DNA of 24,220 nt from a virus, in the IMG/VR virus record IMGVR_UViG_3300004012_000014, positions 1-24,220 of that record. One strand, 5' to 3'. The notes beneath the pieces are model-generated. The model made no database searches. It was not told where the DNA came from and saw nothing but the letters and a program-made list of their open reading frames with translations. Numbering within the stretch: the first letter of the stretch is position 1; each line of letters opens with the position of its first letter. The translations under genes and the position numbers were made by a program. Positions 6,319 to 18,319 of the stretch are shown here, one piece after another.

Positions 6319-6361
6319 GGTATCGTCTCCTTTAAATTAATCATTGATTGACTATGATTAT

Positions 6362-6390
6362 ATTATATAGGATTATTAATCCAAAGTCAA
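6362..6390 (-). promoter_or_regulatory. Early promoter copy 1 with palindromic operator
   Basis: On the minus strand TTGACT (6385-6390) and TATAAT (6362-6367) are separated by exactly 17 bases, a near-perfect sigma-A promoter. The spacer holds the 13-bp palindrome GGATTAATAATCC (6370-6382), ideally placed for a repressor. The -35 and operator also encode the last residues and stop of the upstream zinc-finger gene. A 40-bp stretch (6353-6392) is identical to 8299-8338. It should drive 6318 leftwards. Confidence 0.85.
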
Positions 6391-6792
6391 GTCATTTTTT
6401 GATTTATTTAAAATATTTTCCGCATATGGTTTACATATTTTGATTACAGTTTTACACTGATCAATGTTAAAATATCCTATGTGTGTATCTGGAACGGATA
6501 TATTCATTTTTTCAGATAACCATTTATATGCTTTTATTCTGGTTCCTGATTTTTTATTTTTCCATAATGTATCAAAATACAAATGTGCTATACCTCTATA
6601 TTTTCTTAGTTCTTTATTTGCTAGTGTACCCAATGGCACACAAGTATTTTTATGAACCCCAACGTAAGAATCACATTTAGGATATTTACTGCAAATATAT
6701 ATCATTCCATGGCTTTTACCATATACCATCTTACTATCTGCAAATATGACTTTTGCCCCACAATAGGGGCAAATATCAGTATTTAGATTCAT
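6376..6792 (-). CDS. Zinc-finger protein of the DUF3268 type
   Basis: This 138-residue protein (from the ATG at 6792) opens with CPYCGAK, then YGKSHGMIYICSKYPKCDSY, giving CxxC...CxxxxxC metal ligands. It continues VGVHKNTCVPLGTLANKELR, and ends with a helical region (AYKWLSEKMNI...HIGYFNIDQC). This matches the zinc-finger-containing DUF3268 family, common in phages and of unproven role. I prefer the ATG at 6792, because the upstream ATG pair (6831) has only AAAGGTG directly abutting it. AAAGGAG lies 13 bases before 6792, which is somewhat long. The final codons carry the -35 and operator of the next promoter. Confidence 0.82.
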   Translation of the reverse strand: MNLNTDICPYCGAKVIFADSKMVYGKSHGMIYICSKYPKCDSYVGVHKNTCVPLGTLANKELRKYRGIAHLYFDTLWKNKKSGTRIKAYKWLSEKMNISVPDTHIGYFNIDQCKTVIKICKPYAENILNKSKNDLTLD

Positions 6793-8267: not shown

Positions 8268-8307
8268 ATTAATCCTCCTTTCGTAATACTTGTTAAGATA
8301 TGATTAT

Positions 8308-8336
8308 ATTATATAGGATTATTAATCCAAAGTCAA
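8308..8336 (-). promoter_or_regulatory. Early promoter copy 2 with palindromic operator
   Basis: The minus strand carries TTGACT (8331-8336), a 17-base spacer and TATAAT (8308-8313), with GGATTAATAATCC at 8316-8328 inside the spacer. The surrounding 40 bp (8299-8338) is identical to the promoter at 6353-6392. It sits alone in the gap between the lysis terminator and the early genes and should start the early operon at about 8301. Confidence 0.87.
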
Positions 8337-8338
8337 GT

Positions 8339-8504
8339 TATTTTTAAATAAATCTGTATTTACATTTATGGTAAAATAAGTCATGCACACTAATTTTTAA
8401 TAATTAACTTATTAGCTGGTTTCAGAAAAAAAATACGCTTCAGATAGACTTTTTAATTTATGATCCGAGGCATCAAAGGGATGATTTTTTTCCAATTAAT
8501 AAGC
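8339..8504. other. Gap without a recognised gene between promoter and terminator
   Basis: Between the early promoter and the lysis terminator I see no reading frame with a ribosome binding site. A weak CATC/GATG hairpin followed by A and seven T residues (8471-8490, plus strand) is the only notable element. TTAGCTGGTTT at about 8412 partly repeats the terminator stem. An operator or packaging-site role cannot be judged. Confidence 0.4.
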
Positions 8505-10310: not shown

Positions 10311-10637
10311 TCAAGACCTTTCATATAATATTTCTAATCCGTATTCTTTCACAACGTTGTGTTCTATTTTACAGCCTCTAGCATTTTCCCAACCTTTACA
10401 GAAATAAACTGCATTACATAAACTCATATTTTCAAGGCTTTTTGCCAAAAAACATAAAGGTATTTGAATAACTCCTCTTTCCTTCATTTTTTCATTAGAA
10501 TACCATTCGTCAGTAAATAAAGTATTTATAAATTCATACCCTTTTTCTTTGAATAATTTAATTGCCTTTTCTCTAGTTTCCTTTATTTCTGCTTCTGTCT
10601 TTCCTGCCATTGGTTGGCTTATCATTATTTTTTTCAT
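10311..10637 (-). CDS. DUF4406 nucleoside deoxyribosyltransferase-like protein
   Basis: This 108-residue protein matches the DUF4406 family, a Rossmann-like fold related to nucleoside 2-deoxyribosyltransferases. The start MKKIMISQPMAGKTEAEI gives the ISQPM(A/S)GK motif, then R..A...L...G, LAKSLENMSLCNAVYFCKGW, and ENARGCKIEHNVVKEYGL. The motifs expected of the family are intact. A role in nucleotide or NAD-type metabolism during infection is likely but unproven. AAAGGAGAATTG lies before the ATG at 10637. Placement directly next to an Acb2-like gene is suggestive. Confidence 0.85.
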   Translation of the reverse strand: MKKIMISQPMAGKTEAEIKETREKAIKLFKEKGYEFINTLFTDEWYSNEKMKERGVIQIPLCFLAKSLENMSLCNAVYFCKGWENARGCKIEHNVVKEYGLEILYERS

Positions 10638-10677
10638 AATTTTTCAATTCTCCTTTGATTTTATATATAAAATATAA

Positions 10678-10711
10678 CCTATGATAAATTTATTTATTTA
10701 TTTATCATAGG
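10678..10711. terminator. Strong hairpin, terminator-like on the plus strand
   Basis: CCTATGATAAAT pairs perfectly with ATTTATCATAGG around a 10-base loop, followed on the plus strand by five T residues. On the minus strand the following bases are TTATATTTTATA, so it is at best a weak terminator for leftward RNA. It may mark the 3' border of the tRNA-like RNA. No plus-strand gene precedes it. Confidence 0.5.
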
Positions 10712-10819
10712 TTTTTGGCAACACTGCATCATTTCAATAAAAGGATTTACTCAGGAATCAAACCTAAGACCGCCACCAGCTTTCAATTTATTTTTTCCCA
10801 TAACCCAGGGATTTTTTTA

Positions 10820-10833
10820 ATTAATTTACTAAC
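10820..10833. repeat. 14-bp direct repeat, copy 1
   Basis: ATTAATTTACTAAC also occurs at 10894-10907. The two copies bracket the three 15-bp tandem repeats, as if the segment between them had been inserted or expanded within the tRNA-like element. Confidence 0.75.
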
Positions 10834-10877
10834 ATTTACATTCCAATCATTTATATTCCAATAATTTACATTCCAAT
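10833..10877. repeat. Three tandem 15-bp repeats
   Basis: CATTTACATTCCAAT, CATTTATATTCCAAT and AATTTACATTCCAAT follow one another without gaps (10833-10847, 10848-10862, 10863-10877), differing at one or two positions. They sit in the insert of the tRNA-like element and could be iterons, protein-binding sites or repeated RNA motifs. Confidence 0.85.
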
Positions 10878-10893
10878 ATGGTCTTATTAAAAC

Positions 10894-10907
10894 ATTAATT
10901 TACTAAC
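10894..10907. repeat. 14-bp direct repeat, copy 2
   Basis: This is an identical copy of the repeat at 10820-10833, ending at the stem that replaces the anticodon arm of the tRNA-like element. Confidence 0.75.
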
Positions 10908-10957
10908 TGGTAGAGTTCTTCCATTAAACTATAAATCATATTGCAGTATTGGATTTT

Positions 10958-10985
10958 ATTATAATATTAATTAGAATAAATCCAA
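10958..10985 (-). promoter_or_regulatory. Possible promoter for the tRNA-like RNA
   Basis: A perfect TATAAT (10958-10963) with TTGGAT (10980-10985) 16 bases upstream on the minus strand lies just before the 5' end of the tRNA-like element at 10937. It also lies inside the hairpin GTATTGGATTT/AAATCCAATAC. The -35 matches consensus at only 4 of 6 positions. Confidence 0.4.
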
Positions 10986-11021
10986 TACCACTATCTATAT
11001 AAACCTATACAGGATAGGAAC

Positions 11022-11438
11022 CTACATTTTACCTTTTACCTGTTTCAGCTTATCTACATTAAGAGAATATTTTTTATTATTATCAATTATATCATTGTTA
11101 ACAGCTTTTCTAAATTCTGTTTCTTTCATACTTAATTCATTTTTCTTATTAATAAGAAATCCATAAAATTTATTATAATCATCTTTACCTTTATTATATA
11201 TATTTTGATTTTCCGCAACAAGTTTTTTAGTATCTTTTTTTAATTTTTCGATATCTTCTATAGACATTTTATTTATAACAATTTTTTCTATCAATTCTAT
11301 TGCCCTTAAATCGATATTATTTAAAGTAATTTCATTTATAGCTTTTTGCCCCTTCTCATTAATAGAATTAAGCAAAGCCGCAATACTTTCAACTTCATTT
11401 TTTAATTTTTCAATCTCACTTTGTAATTTTTCTATCAT
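11022..11438 (-). CDS. Coiled-coil protein paired with a ribbon-helix-helix gene
   Basis: This 138-residue protein is almost entirely coiled coil (IEKLQSEIEKLKNEVESIAA through KKDTKKLVAENQNIY), ending in a basic tail (KYSLNVDKLKQVKGKM). There are no cysteines, membrane segments or catalytic motifs. Its ATG overlaps the stop of the ribbon-helix-helix gene by 4 bases (ATGA), typical of a co-regulated pair. Partition-like, toxin-antitoxin-like or RNA-associated roles are all conceivable; the sequence does not decide. Confidence 0.72.
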   Translation of the reverse strand: MIEKLQSEIEKLKNEVESIAALLNSINEKGQKAINEITLNNIDLRAIELIEKIVINKMSIEDIEKLKKDTKKLVAENQNIYNKGKDDYNKFYGFLINKKNELSMKETEFRKAVNNDIIDNNKKYSLNVDKLKQVKGKM

Positions 11439-11602: not shown

Positions 11603-11639
11603 ATTACCGCCTCATTTAATATCTTATGAAATATTTATT

Positions 11640-11662
11640 ATCAGTATATACAAACAGTGTAA
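11640..11662. repeat. Left arm of a 23-bp inverted repeat
   Basis: This arm pairs with 11790-11812 at 21 of 23 positions (two central mismatches). It closes a domain of about 175 nt that forms the 3' part of the structured RNA region, and ends 38 bases before the start of the ribbon-helix-helix gene. Confidence 0.85.
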
Positions 11663-11789
11663 GCTGAGCGATGCAATAATTTTCAAACTTTTTCATTTAC
11701 TATGCATTCTTGAATTCGTCAATTCTATTTACGCTGTATTAACTAGTATCTAGCATGTAAGCTCTATCTTAACCAAATTGTTAAGACCT

Positions 11790-11812
11790 TTACACCATTT
11801 GTATATACTGAT
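11790..11812. repeat. Right arm of a 23-bp inverted repeat
   Basis: This arm pairs with 11640-11662. Its outer end touches the AAGACCTT helix (11783-11790), so the two helices compete or form a pseudoknot. Confidence 0.85.
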
Positions 11813-11899
11813 TAAAAGTTGAGGGGATGACTACCCCTCTATTTGTTAAGGTCTTATGTTAACAAGTTTTCGCAACTTGTACTAACTGCCTTGCAAGTA

Positions 11900-11979
11900 A
11901 AGGACCGCCGGGAATCGAACCCGGATATATAAATATATTGGATAGCTAATCCATGGATAATTCCAACATCCCAAATCCT
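11900..11979 (-). ncRNA. tRNA-like domain with perfect T-arm and odd anticodon arm
   Basis: Minus strand: AGGATT (11974-11979) can pair with GGTCCT (11901-11906, two G-T pairs). Then come T8-G9, D-arm GGAT-GTTGGAATT-ATCC, a short anticodon arm TGGA-TTAGCTA-TCCA, an A/T variable arm of about 14 nt that can fold on itself (class II-like), and an ideal T-arm CCGGG-TTCGATT-CCCGG (11908-11924). The 5' acceptor strand is one base short, the anticodon stem is only 4 bp, and position 37 is T rather than a purine. A normal decoding tRNA is therefore doubtful. No CCA is encoded. A nominal AGC anticodon should not be trusted. Confidence 0.6.
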
Positions 11980-12151
11980 AACACAACCAACTTTACCCTC
12001 CGCCAACCATAACATTTTATATTTACTTAGGGCGTTTTAAAACGTTATTAAAATCTTTGCCCTCGTGGAATAGTTTTCTTTAAAGTCTGTAACTATTCTA
12101 AAAAAGACTAAAAATCTAATTAATAAAATTACTAAGCATAATCATATTATA

Positions 12152-12180
12152 ATTTTAACATTTTAACATTCAATTGTCAA
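12152..12180 (-). promoter_or_regulatory. Promoter of the structured RNA region
   Basis: On the minus strand consensus TTGACA (12175-12180) is followed after 17 bases by TAAAAT (12152-12157). The -35 lies in the last codons of the preceding coiled-coil gene. Transcription would begin near 12145 and run into the structured region rather than into a gene. Confidence 0.75.
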
Positions 12181-17462: not shown

Positions 17463-17776
17463 TTGCTAAATACAAATATTTATACCTAGCAAAATTTTTA
17501 ATATCTTTGCTAGGTATATTTTTTTGCTAATTACAAATTGCTAATTACAAATTGCTAAGTAAAAATTCTTGCCAGGTATAACATTGCTAAGTACAAATTA
17601 AATACAGTAAATTATAATTTCTTTTTAACCTTGCTAATTAAAAATATTGTTCCTAGCAATAATACAAAACTGCCACTAACTAGCATAAAAGTAGGTTTTT
17701 CTTCTCCTGTTTGTGGCAAAGTTTTATTATTAGCAATTGACTTGCTAGATTTATTTTTAATATTGCTAAGTACAAA
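17463..17776. repeat. Family of 14-bp repeats (TTGCTAANTACAAA)
   Basis: Copies start at 17463, 17524, 17538, 17552, 17584, 17631 and 17763 (with a weaker one at about 17940 and a degenerate one at 17569). Those at 17524, 17538 and 17552 are in tandem with a 14-base period. They run from the gap between convergent operons into the 3' end of the LPXTG gene, where they encode F(V/L)xS(N/K/R). No secondary structure or known element explains them. Confidence 0.8.
17481..17525 (+). terminator. Intrinsic terminator of the plus operon
   Basis: TATACCTAGCAAA pairs perfectly with TTTGCTAGGTATA (13 bp), followed by seven T residues at 17519-17525. It ends transcription of the plus operon and faces the oncoming tail operon. 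Confidence 0.9.
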
Positions 17777-18319
17777 ATTGCTAGATTCATTGCTAGGTAA
17801 TATTGGGGAAATAGTAGGATTTAAAATAGGTGTTATAATTGTTTCTGTGGGTTCTGGTGGTGTAACTGGTAAAGTAATTATTGGTGTTATAGTTGGTTTA
17901 TCTGTAATAGTTGGTGTTGGTGTAGATATTATTTCATATCTGCTAACTACAAAATAAAACCAATAATATAAATTATCATAGTCTCCAAGTTCATTTTGTT
18001 TTTCAACTTTTATAAATAATATCTTTAATCCTTTTTTTAAGAATTTTTCACTGTAACCAGAATAAACTAAAATATCATTTTCATAACTTTTCATATCGAT
18101 TATACAATATGGATTTAATGTAGTTATTGAATCACCTACATTAATTTTATTTCCATCAATTGTAACATTTGTATCATATTTTGGTTGATTATCTATTTGG
18201 TCAATAGGTGTTATTTTCTTAAAAAATACCTTATATTCATATTTTGTATCGGCATAAGACAAAGTTATGAATGAAAATAAAAAGACTATTATAAGTATAA
18301 AACTAATTAATTTTTTCAT
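17612..18319 (-). CDS. LPXTG cell-wall-anchored surface protein (moron)
   Basis: This 235-residue secreted protein has an N-terminal signal peptide (MKKLISFILIIVFLFSFITL, cleavage near SYAD). A beta-rich domain (25-130: YEYKVFFKKITP through YYWFYFVVSRYEI) is followed by a Pro/Thr-rich wall spacer (133-175). The sortase signal is complete: LPQTG at 201-205, a hydrophobic segment (FMLVSGSFVLLLGTIFLIS) and a basic tail KVKKKL. Host sortase should couple it to peptidoglycan. It is the last gene of the tail operon and is not a known virion component, so lysogenic conversion, receptor masking or adhesion are plausible. Its C-terminal codons carry copies of the 14-bp repeat family. Confidence 0.88.
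   Translation of the reverse strand: MKKLISFILIIVFLFSFITLSYADTKYEYKVFFKKITPIDQIDNQPKYDTNVTIDGNKINVGDSITTLNPYCIIDMKSYENDILVYSGYSEKFLKKGLKILFIKVEKQNELGDYDNLYYWFYFVVSRYEIISTPTPTITDKPTITPIITLPVTPPEPTETIITPILNPTISPILPSNESSNFVLSNIKNKSSKSIANNKTLPQTGEEKPTFMLVSGSFVLLLGTIFLISKVKKKL

Follow-up and report, generated by a model that had tools for sequence, protein, structure and literature searches.

A tRNA-like element of a phage with its anticodon loop replaced by a 127-nt, repeat-bearing insert

The usual explanations for the transfer RNA genes of phages are codon usage and the replacement of tRNAs that host nucleases have cleaved. Neither fits a tRNA body in which the folding elements are preserved and the anticodon loop is replaced, and it is such a body that we describe here from a stretch of viral DNA of 24,220 nucleotides, analysed as a whole and referred to as the window. 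The closest published kind is that of the "enigmatic" introns in the tRNAs of Lak megaphages; to the knowledge of the authors who reported them, phage tRNA introns had previously been unreported (Devoto et al., 2019; PMC6784885). As in the Lak type, the insertion in the window is situated in the anticodon loop of a tRNA. A comparable setting is provided by ROOL and GOLLD, ornate phage RNAs found near tRNA islands (PMC12286853). In the openly licensed literature we found no account of a tRNA body whose anticodon loop has been replaced, and since our search was limited to such papers, the novelty of the element is provisional.

Read 5' to 3' on the minus strand, the element consists of acceptor, one base, D-arm GTTTAATGGAAGAAC, T, CTACCAG, 127 nt, CTGGTGG, CGGTC, T-arm, GTAAATC and C (Table 1). 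The original prediction, which named no strand, had paired the acceptor strands, a GG-bearing D-arm, a T-arm and a 7-bp stem in the anticodon position across a 127-nt interruption; all of these pairings are present, and the 7-bp strands enclose exactly 127 nt. The four stems are fully paired, with 7 pairs in the acceptor, 4 in the D-stem, 5 in the anticodon stem (extendable to 7-9) and 5 in the T-stem, and these lengths are those of a canonical cloverleaf (acceptor 7, D 3-4, anticodon 5 and T 5 bp); the anticodon-position stem grows from 7 to 9 bp via two T pairs (CTACCAGTT/AGCTGGTGG). With the acceptor counted as 7 bp, a single base precedes the D-arm and U8 is absent, a loss that is avoided when the acceptor is read as 6 bp. 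Where a canonical tRNA has a 7-nt anticodon loop with U33, the element has, in the canonical register, a loop of 127 nt. In this register (one base at position 26 and a 5-nt variable loop), A32-G33 are paired with C37-U38, so that the arm is lengthened and lacks a normal anticodon loop. A register shifted by two, which is the form drawn by ARAGORN, offers the loop TTAGTAA with U33, A37 and the anticodon AGU, and only here does removal of the insert give a normal-looking loop; the cost of this shift is that the linker measures 3 nt and the variable loop 7 nt and that the stem is longer. As its anticodon loop is replaced by a 127-nt insert on a lengthened stem, the element is unable to decode as it stands.

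Table 1. Positions of the features discussed in the text; positions refer to the window unless another locus is named.
Feature	Position	Strand	Remarks
tRNA-like element, 195 nt including a C at the discriminator position (10743); no encoded CCA	10743-10937	minus	
Acceptor stem, 5' strand GATTTAT	10931-10937	minus	7/7 pairs with 10744-10750
D-arm GTTTAATGGAAGAAC	10915-10929	minus	A14, A15, G18 G19 and A21 present
Anticodon-position stem, 5' strand CTACCAG	10907-10913	minus	7 pairs with 10773-10779, P 0.99 each
Insert replacing the anticodon loop, 127 nt	10780-10906	minus	
14-nt repeat, copy 1, GTTAGTAAATTAAT	10894-10907	minus	begins with the base that ends the stem strand
Three 15-nt tandem units ATTGGAATRTAAATN	10833-10878 (10833/4-10877/8)	minus	
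14-nt repeat, copy 2, GTTAGTAAATTAAT	10820-10833	minus	identical to copy 1
Anticodon-position stem, 3' strand CTGGTGG	10773-10779	minus	
Variable loop CGGTC, 5 nt	10768-10772	minus	
T-arm TTAGG TTTGATT CCTGA	10751-10767	minus	T, not C, at position 56
Acceptor stem, 3' strand GTAAATC	10744-10750	minus	
Perfect 14-bp hairpin followed by ATATTTTAT, likely a terminator, could serve both strands	10676-10713	minus	inverted repeat, consensus match
Hairpin GTATTGGATTTATT..AATAAAATCCAATAC just upstream of the element	10947-10993	minus	
Structured RNA region, ~480 nt	11630-12110	minus	z -4.0 against shuffles; contains the second tRNA-like
Second, degenerate tRNA-like	11900-11979	minus	ARAGORN at 95% threshold; RF00005 13.4 bits, below cut-off
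Promoter-like site, best match in the region, TTGACA-17-TAAAAT, extended -10	12152-12180	minus	11/12 matches, consensus match only
Enlarged tRNA of Streptococcus suis phages	L192:2501-2611, L193:2501-2613		phi5218, Javan577/584

The insert is AU-rich, with 21% GC, and its own fold is no better than that of shuffles (z -0.64). Its layout is as originally described, with two identical 14-bp repeats enclosing three 15-bp tandem repeats, and a GGA is contained in each of the 15-nt units. The loop sequence TTAGTAA is duplicated within the insert. The rest of the window shows no enrichment of the 15-nt unit, and the matches to it in a scan of IMG/VR were unrelated coding or AT-rich DNA. Neither structure nor similarity of the insert pointed to a cargo.

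The cloverleaf at 10743-10937 is not accidental. In a generic two-part tRNA search, which required a T-loop, a D-loop with A14, R15, GG and A21, four stems and an insert of at most 300 nt, the element scores 23, a value reached or exceeded in 3 of 13,540 dinucleotide shuffles (whole window, both strands); this figure is approximate, since the finder had been loosened to admit the element (by accepting a single spacer base ahead of the D-stem, a T at position 56 and G-T pairs) and is thereby lenient exactly where the element departs from the canonical form. The element was called neither by ARAGORN with default settings nor by Rfam at gathering scores, and an RF00005 search of the longer record of this virus (see below) up to E=10 did not list it. 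With introns allowed and a threshold of 90%, ARAGORN finds the element plus four other candidates in the window; ARAGORN by itself hence proves nothing, and its intron-mode match was rejected as sole evidence for being too permissive. The free fold of the element is not unusual when compared with shuffles (z -0.94), the D and T arms make up only a small part of the ensemble, and the minimum-energy fold prefers an alternative pairing of these two arms, with the forced cloverleaf placed 1 kcal/mol above the optimum. As folding programs ignore tRNA tertiary contacts, the free-fold result is weak evidence in both directions.

With regard to known RNA classes, no Rfam family was found for the element at gathering or at permissive thresholds. 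The original prediction had set the insert apart from group I introns, and rightly so: across 10600-11050 Rfam returned no hit up to E=10, and the insert measures just 120-127 nt; the same holds for tmRNA, the models of which were unmatched at gathering score and at E<=10 over this interval, and the element possesses a full D-stem. The proposed link to Y-RNA-like (YrlA) RNAs found no support, as Rfam gave no match, also at E<=10 over 10600-11050. We are highly confident that the anatomy of the element is as given here and that it derives from a tRNA; with its loop replaced by 127 nt, a non-decoding tRNA-like or scaffold RNA, as had been suggested, is a sensible reading.

The window, an IMG/VR virus record, is 100% identical over more than 8 kb to a longer one of 38,869 bases, IMGVR_UViG_3300025563_000008, and the single other copy found of the element is 100% identical and apparently stems from the same virus. 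No diverged homologue was found by blastn against phages, by pattern scans of IMG/VR or among 391 Clostridia genomes. Searches by blastn with the element against phages and with the region against plasmids and the 391 Clostridia genomes gave AT-rich chance matches only, and an exact-pattern scan of IMG/VR with the D-half retrieved the same virus only. The matches of a further IMG/VR scan, with a Gly-like D-arm pattern and a long gap, were read as tandem tRNAs and discarded. The primase-helicase, used as a route to close relatives, led to none in genome contigs and to the same virus only in viral contigs; among 291 genomes, the best identity was 36%. A pair of related genomes carrying the same tRNA with and without the insert was not found for the window element, and no intact tRNA was detected in the record of 24-39 kb.

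The predicted gene products of the record include a phage replisome organiser, a DnaB-type primase/helicase, an amidase, a holin and the small subunit of a terminase; this is the repertoire of a tailed phage that infects a low-GC Gram-positive host. Upstream of the element, on the same strand, are a 138-aa ORF of coiled-coil-like character and, at a distance of ~0.5 kb, a 55-aa ORF, which by our own reading looks like a small ribbon-helix-helix DNA-binding protein; Pfam did not confirm this. The second tRNA-like sequence has a perfect T-arm (CCGGG-TTCGATT-CCCGG), a hairpin-like variable arm, and either a 5-bp stem with a 5-nt loop or ATGGA TTAGCTA TCCAA. The structured region that contains it includes a 28-nt inverted repeat (11635-11662/11790-11817, 86% complementary) and has no Rfam family, the ROOL and GOLLD models both being unmatched; it is possibly an undescribed large phage RNA. 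No promoter directly adjoins the element. The simplest reading of these features is a single leftward transcription unit of ~1.5 kb, an unannotated RNA region that would extend from the promoter-like site at 12180 to the putative terminator at 10713-10676.

Elsewhere in the window, two 47-bp copies (6353-6399 and 8299-8345, 98% identical) contain a promoter-like minus-strand TTGACT-17-TATAAT with the palindrome GGATTAATAATCC in the spacer, and they probably represent a pair of promoters controlled by a single operator. Three 14-bp tandem repeats TTGCTAATTACAAA (17524-17567) are found in a gap between convergent gene blocks, and the minus-strand gene at 17612-18319 encodes a product with a signal peptide-like start, a Pro/Thr-rich region and an LPXTG anchor (Pfam Gram_pos_anchor).

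Comparison with other phages, which the original prediction had named as a check, revealed swapped or enlarged anticodon regions on other tRNA bodies. The downstream neighbour of the element is a 108-aa DUF4406-type gene with at least 80 relatives in IMG/VR; in several of these, a tRNA island precedes the gene on the same strand, and a ROOL RNA (359-389 bits) is present as well in five. The clearest case of an abnormal island tRNA is L013:2088-2236, a tRNA-Arg in which skipping-rope RNA (RF02924, 64.8 bits) takes the place of the anticodon loop; the acceptor, D-arm and T-arm of this tRNA align with the normal tRNA-Arg(ACG) genes of six relatives. Further altered anticodon regions among the island tRNAs are a stem AACTCAG/CTGAGTT around 36 nt (L013:1572-1682), a stem GTCAG/CTGAC with an 18-nt loop (L009:338-420 and L033:2172-2254) and an enlarged region at L008:1982-2060. 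In a scan of IMG/VR, the chimera of skipping-rope RNA and tRNA was confined to the L013 phage, and skipping-rope as a general tRNA insert was rejected, as the four chromosomal copies inspected are stand-alone. Neither the window insert nor the longer record matches RF02924.

A scan of IMG/VR, in which some of the viruses may infect non-bacterial hosts, for a common D-arm followed by a T-arm 52-82 nt on (usually ~26 nt, and ~40 nt in tRNAs with a long variable arm) returned 49 places. Once tandem tRNAs and duplicates had been discarded, there remained 26 distinct bodies in which the region from anticodon to T-arm is enlarged, each with at least 6/7 acceptor and at least 4/5 T-stem pairs. The anticodon stem is completely paired (5/5) in 10 of the 26, two of the ten (L121 and L148) being near-identical, compared with 9.8% of shuffles, and most of the bodies submitted to Rfam exceed its tRNA cut-off despite the insert. 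This comparison set is mixed, since it includes both intron-like elements and altered variable arms. At L110:5005-5158 (59.7 bits to RF00005), a tRNA consistent with Lys(UUU) seems to carry an intron, an insert of ~82 nt closed by the clean stem CCTGA/TCAGG; this insert contains CAGATGAAAGTCC, which is faintly like a group I core. Other enlarged bodies have lengthened stems or extra hairpins. The inserts at L138:270-512 and 676-798, L153:1233-1348 and L111:5987-6110 seemingly have in common a small hairpin followed by YNCAGCAA and possibly form one family of small tRNA inserts or introns.

One of the 26 bodies, 111 nt in length, recurs in Streptococcus suis phages, and in phi5218 it looks like an altered variable arm. 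It is present in identical form in phi5218 and with 82% identity in Javan577/584, unannotated in all three; the two forms score 43.5 and 41.8 bits to the tRNA model. In Javan577 it directly follows a GOLLD RNA (253.8 bits), and in Javan565, the GOLLD RNA of which is ~98% identical, an ordinary tRNA-Phe with matching ends follows. On visual inspection, phi5218 and Javan577 share the 7-bp anticodon-position stem of the enlarged form although its sequence differs, with one bulge in Javan577.

We tentatively favor the view that the element is a derived phage tRNA gene whose anticodon loop gave way to the insert, which is retained as a tRNA-scaffolded loop. RNase P and tRNase Z recognize chiefly the acceptor/T-arm stack, and laboratory tRNA scaffolds, in which RNAs are grafted onto the anticodon stem, exploit this recognition. 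It is the intact acceptor/T-arm stack, together with the laboratory precedent, that makes us rank a retained loop above a decaying gene and an excised intron. Moreover, four paired stems and the loss of tertiary and decoding positions (U8 in one register, C56, and U33 of the canonical register) are to be expected if structure was kept and decoding was not. In its favor, we also count the rarity of such a cloverleaf in shuffles, the altered anticodon arms near ROOL/tRNA islands, the 26 enlarged bodies and the conservation at 82% in the S. suis phages. Against it, we count a free fold no better than that of shuffles, the missing U8, the U56 and the lack of CCA, which also fit decay, as well as the absence of a diverged homologue (and with it of covariation), of a cargo-like insert and of an adjoining promoter; the promoter and terminator are consensus matches. 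The mixed nature of the comparison set, with its intron-like elements and altered variable arms, likewise counts against it.

According to this retained-loop model, the element would be transcribed leftward together with the adjacent structured RNA and the second tRNA-like sequence, and its ends would be trimmed by host tRNA-processing enzymes at the acceptor/T-arm stack. The insert would remain in place and be displayed as a long single-stranded loop with its three GGA-containing 15-nt repeats. The product would be a naturally tRNA-scaffolded RNA, the repeats of which might engage a binding partner; that the GGA units are a protein-binding array could be the case but is speculation.

A possible, though less probable, history is one of decay, in which a former decoding tRNA of an island had its anticodon loop filled by the expansion of AT-rich repeats and is now functionless. 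The loss of U8 and C56 and the lack of CCA would suit such a pseudogene, as would low-complexity repeats that are able to expand by slippage, the intact tRNAs that relatives have at a comparable position and the degenerate state of the second tRNA-like sequence. However, random decay should have broken some of the stems, and all four are still paired, with 23-25 pairs; alterations of the anticodon region are also seen repeatedly, one of them being conserved among S. suis phages.

The ambiguity of the anticodon register, canonical or shifted by two, keeps in play the reading of the insert as a small, Lak-like intron, which we consider unlikely. Excision of the 120 nt between TTAGTAA and CTGGT, in the register ACCAG-TTAGTAA-[120]-CTGGT, would yield a 7-nt loop with U33 and A37 and leave the anticodon AGU, and phage tRNAs with clean inserts in the anticodon loop exist, for instance L110:5005-5158; tRNA introns in phages were reported by Devoto et al. 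(2019; PMC6784885). The resulting tRNA, however, would have the 3-nt linker and 7-nt variable loop noted above, and two further pairs would extend its anticodon stem to 7 bp, which is unusual for decoding; the loop sequence TTAGTAA is duplicated inside the insert, there is no group I match, for which 120 nt would be short, and neither an RNA ligase nor a tRNA endonuclease was present among the proteins scanned. It is very improbable that the repeats act at the DNA level, as operator, partition or replication iteron sites with incidental tRNA-like flanks: 15-bp direct repeats flanked by 14-bp repeats and the putative ribbon-helix-helix ORF (which Pfam did not confirm) ~0.5 kb upstream would be in line with this, but the repeats are placed exactly inside the loop of a cloverleaf that is rare among shuffles, and the remainder of the window is not enriched for the unit. 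A tmRNA-like or Y-RNA-like RNA is scarcely credible, for although the tRNA-like ends are split by an insert and the tmRNA mode of ARAGORN reports candidates at a 50% threshold, the element has a full D-stem, no recognised tag and no match at E<=10 over 10600-11050.

Retention of the insert would mean that phages make use of natural tRNA scaffolds, and its excision that they have small tRNA introns without a known splicing mechanism, a question standing since the Lak report. In the S. suis phages, where one tRNA exists in an enlarged form (phi5218, Javan577) and in a normal form (Javan565), these alternatives are directly testable in a named system. As a broader and rather doubtful conjecture, phages, often those with ROOL or GOLLD, might repeatedly turn decoding tRNAs into non-decoding RNAs on a tRNA scaffold by exchanging the anticodon loop for skipping-rope RNA in L013, for hairpins elsewhere and for an unstructured repeat array in the window. 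The body would then serve processing and stability as in laboratory scaffolds, and the window repeats would be an exposed binding array, for example for a GGA-recognising RNA-binding protein.

Viewed against the known systems, the window shares with the Lak megaphages (PMC6784885) the interruption of phage tRNA genes without a recognised splicing mechanism. The Lak phages, however, are Prevotella megaphages of more than 540 kb with dozens of tRNAs, whereas the window record comprises 24-39 kb without a detected intact tRNA, and its insert is longer than the Lak introns, repeat-bearing and placed on a lengthened stem. The setting, tRNAs together with a large structured RNA, resembles that of the ROOL and GOLLD systems (PMC12286853), but the structured RNA at 11630-12110 matches neither of the two. 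The L013 chimera, like the window element, has kept its tRNA body, swapped its anticodon loop and has a DUF4406 gene downstream, the latter being the route of its discovery; its cargo is a known structured RNA family, whereas the window insert consists of AU-rich repeats. The enlarged S. suis tRNA likewise combines a tRNA body and a 7-bp anticodon-position stem with the lack of a normal anticodon loop, and it adjoins a large ornate RNA, GOLLD, in Javan577; unlike in the window, its extra sequence is mainly situated between anticodon stem and T-arm, with T-arm-like and other hairpins. We file the element as a variant of a poorly understood kind, phage tRNA genes with insertions in the anticodon region.
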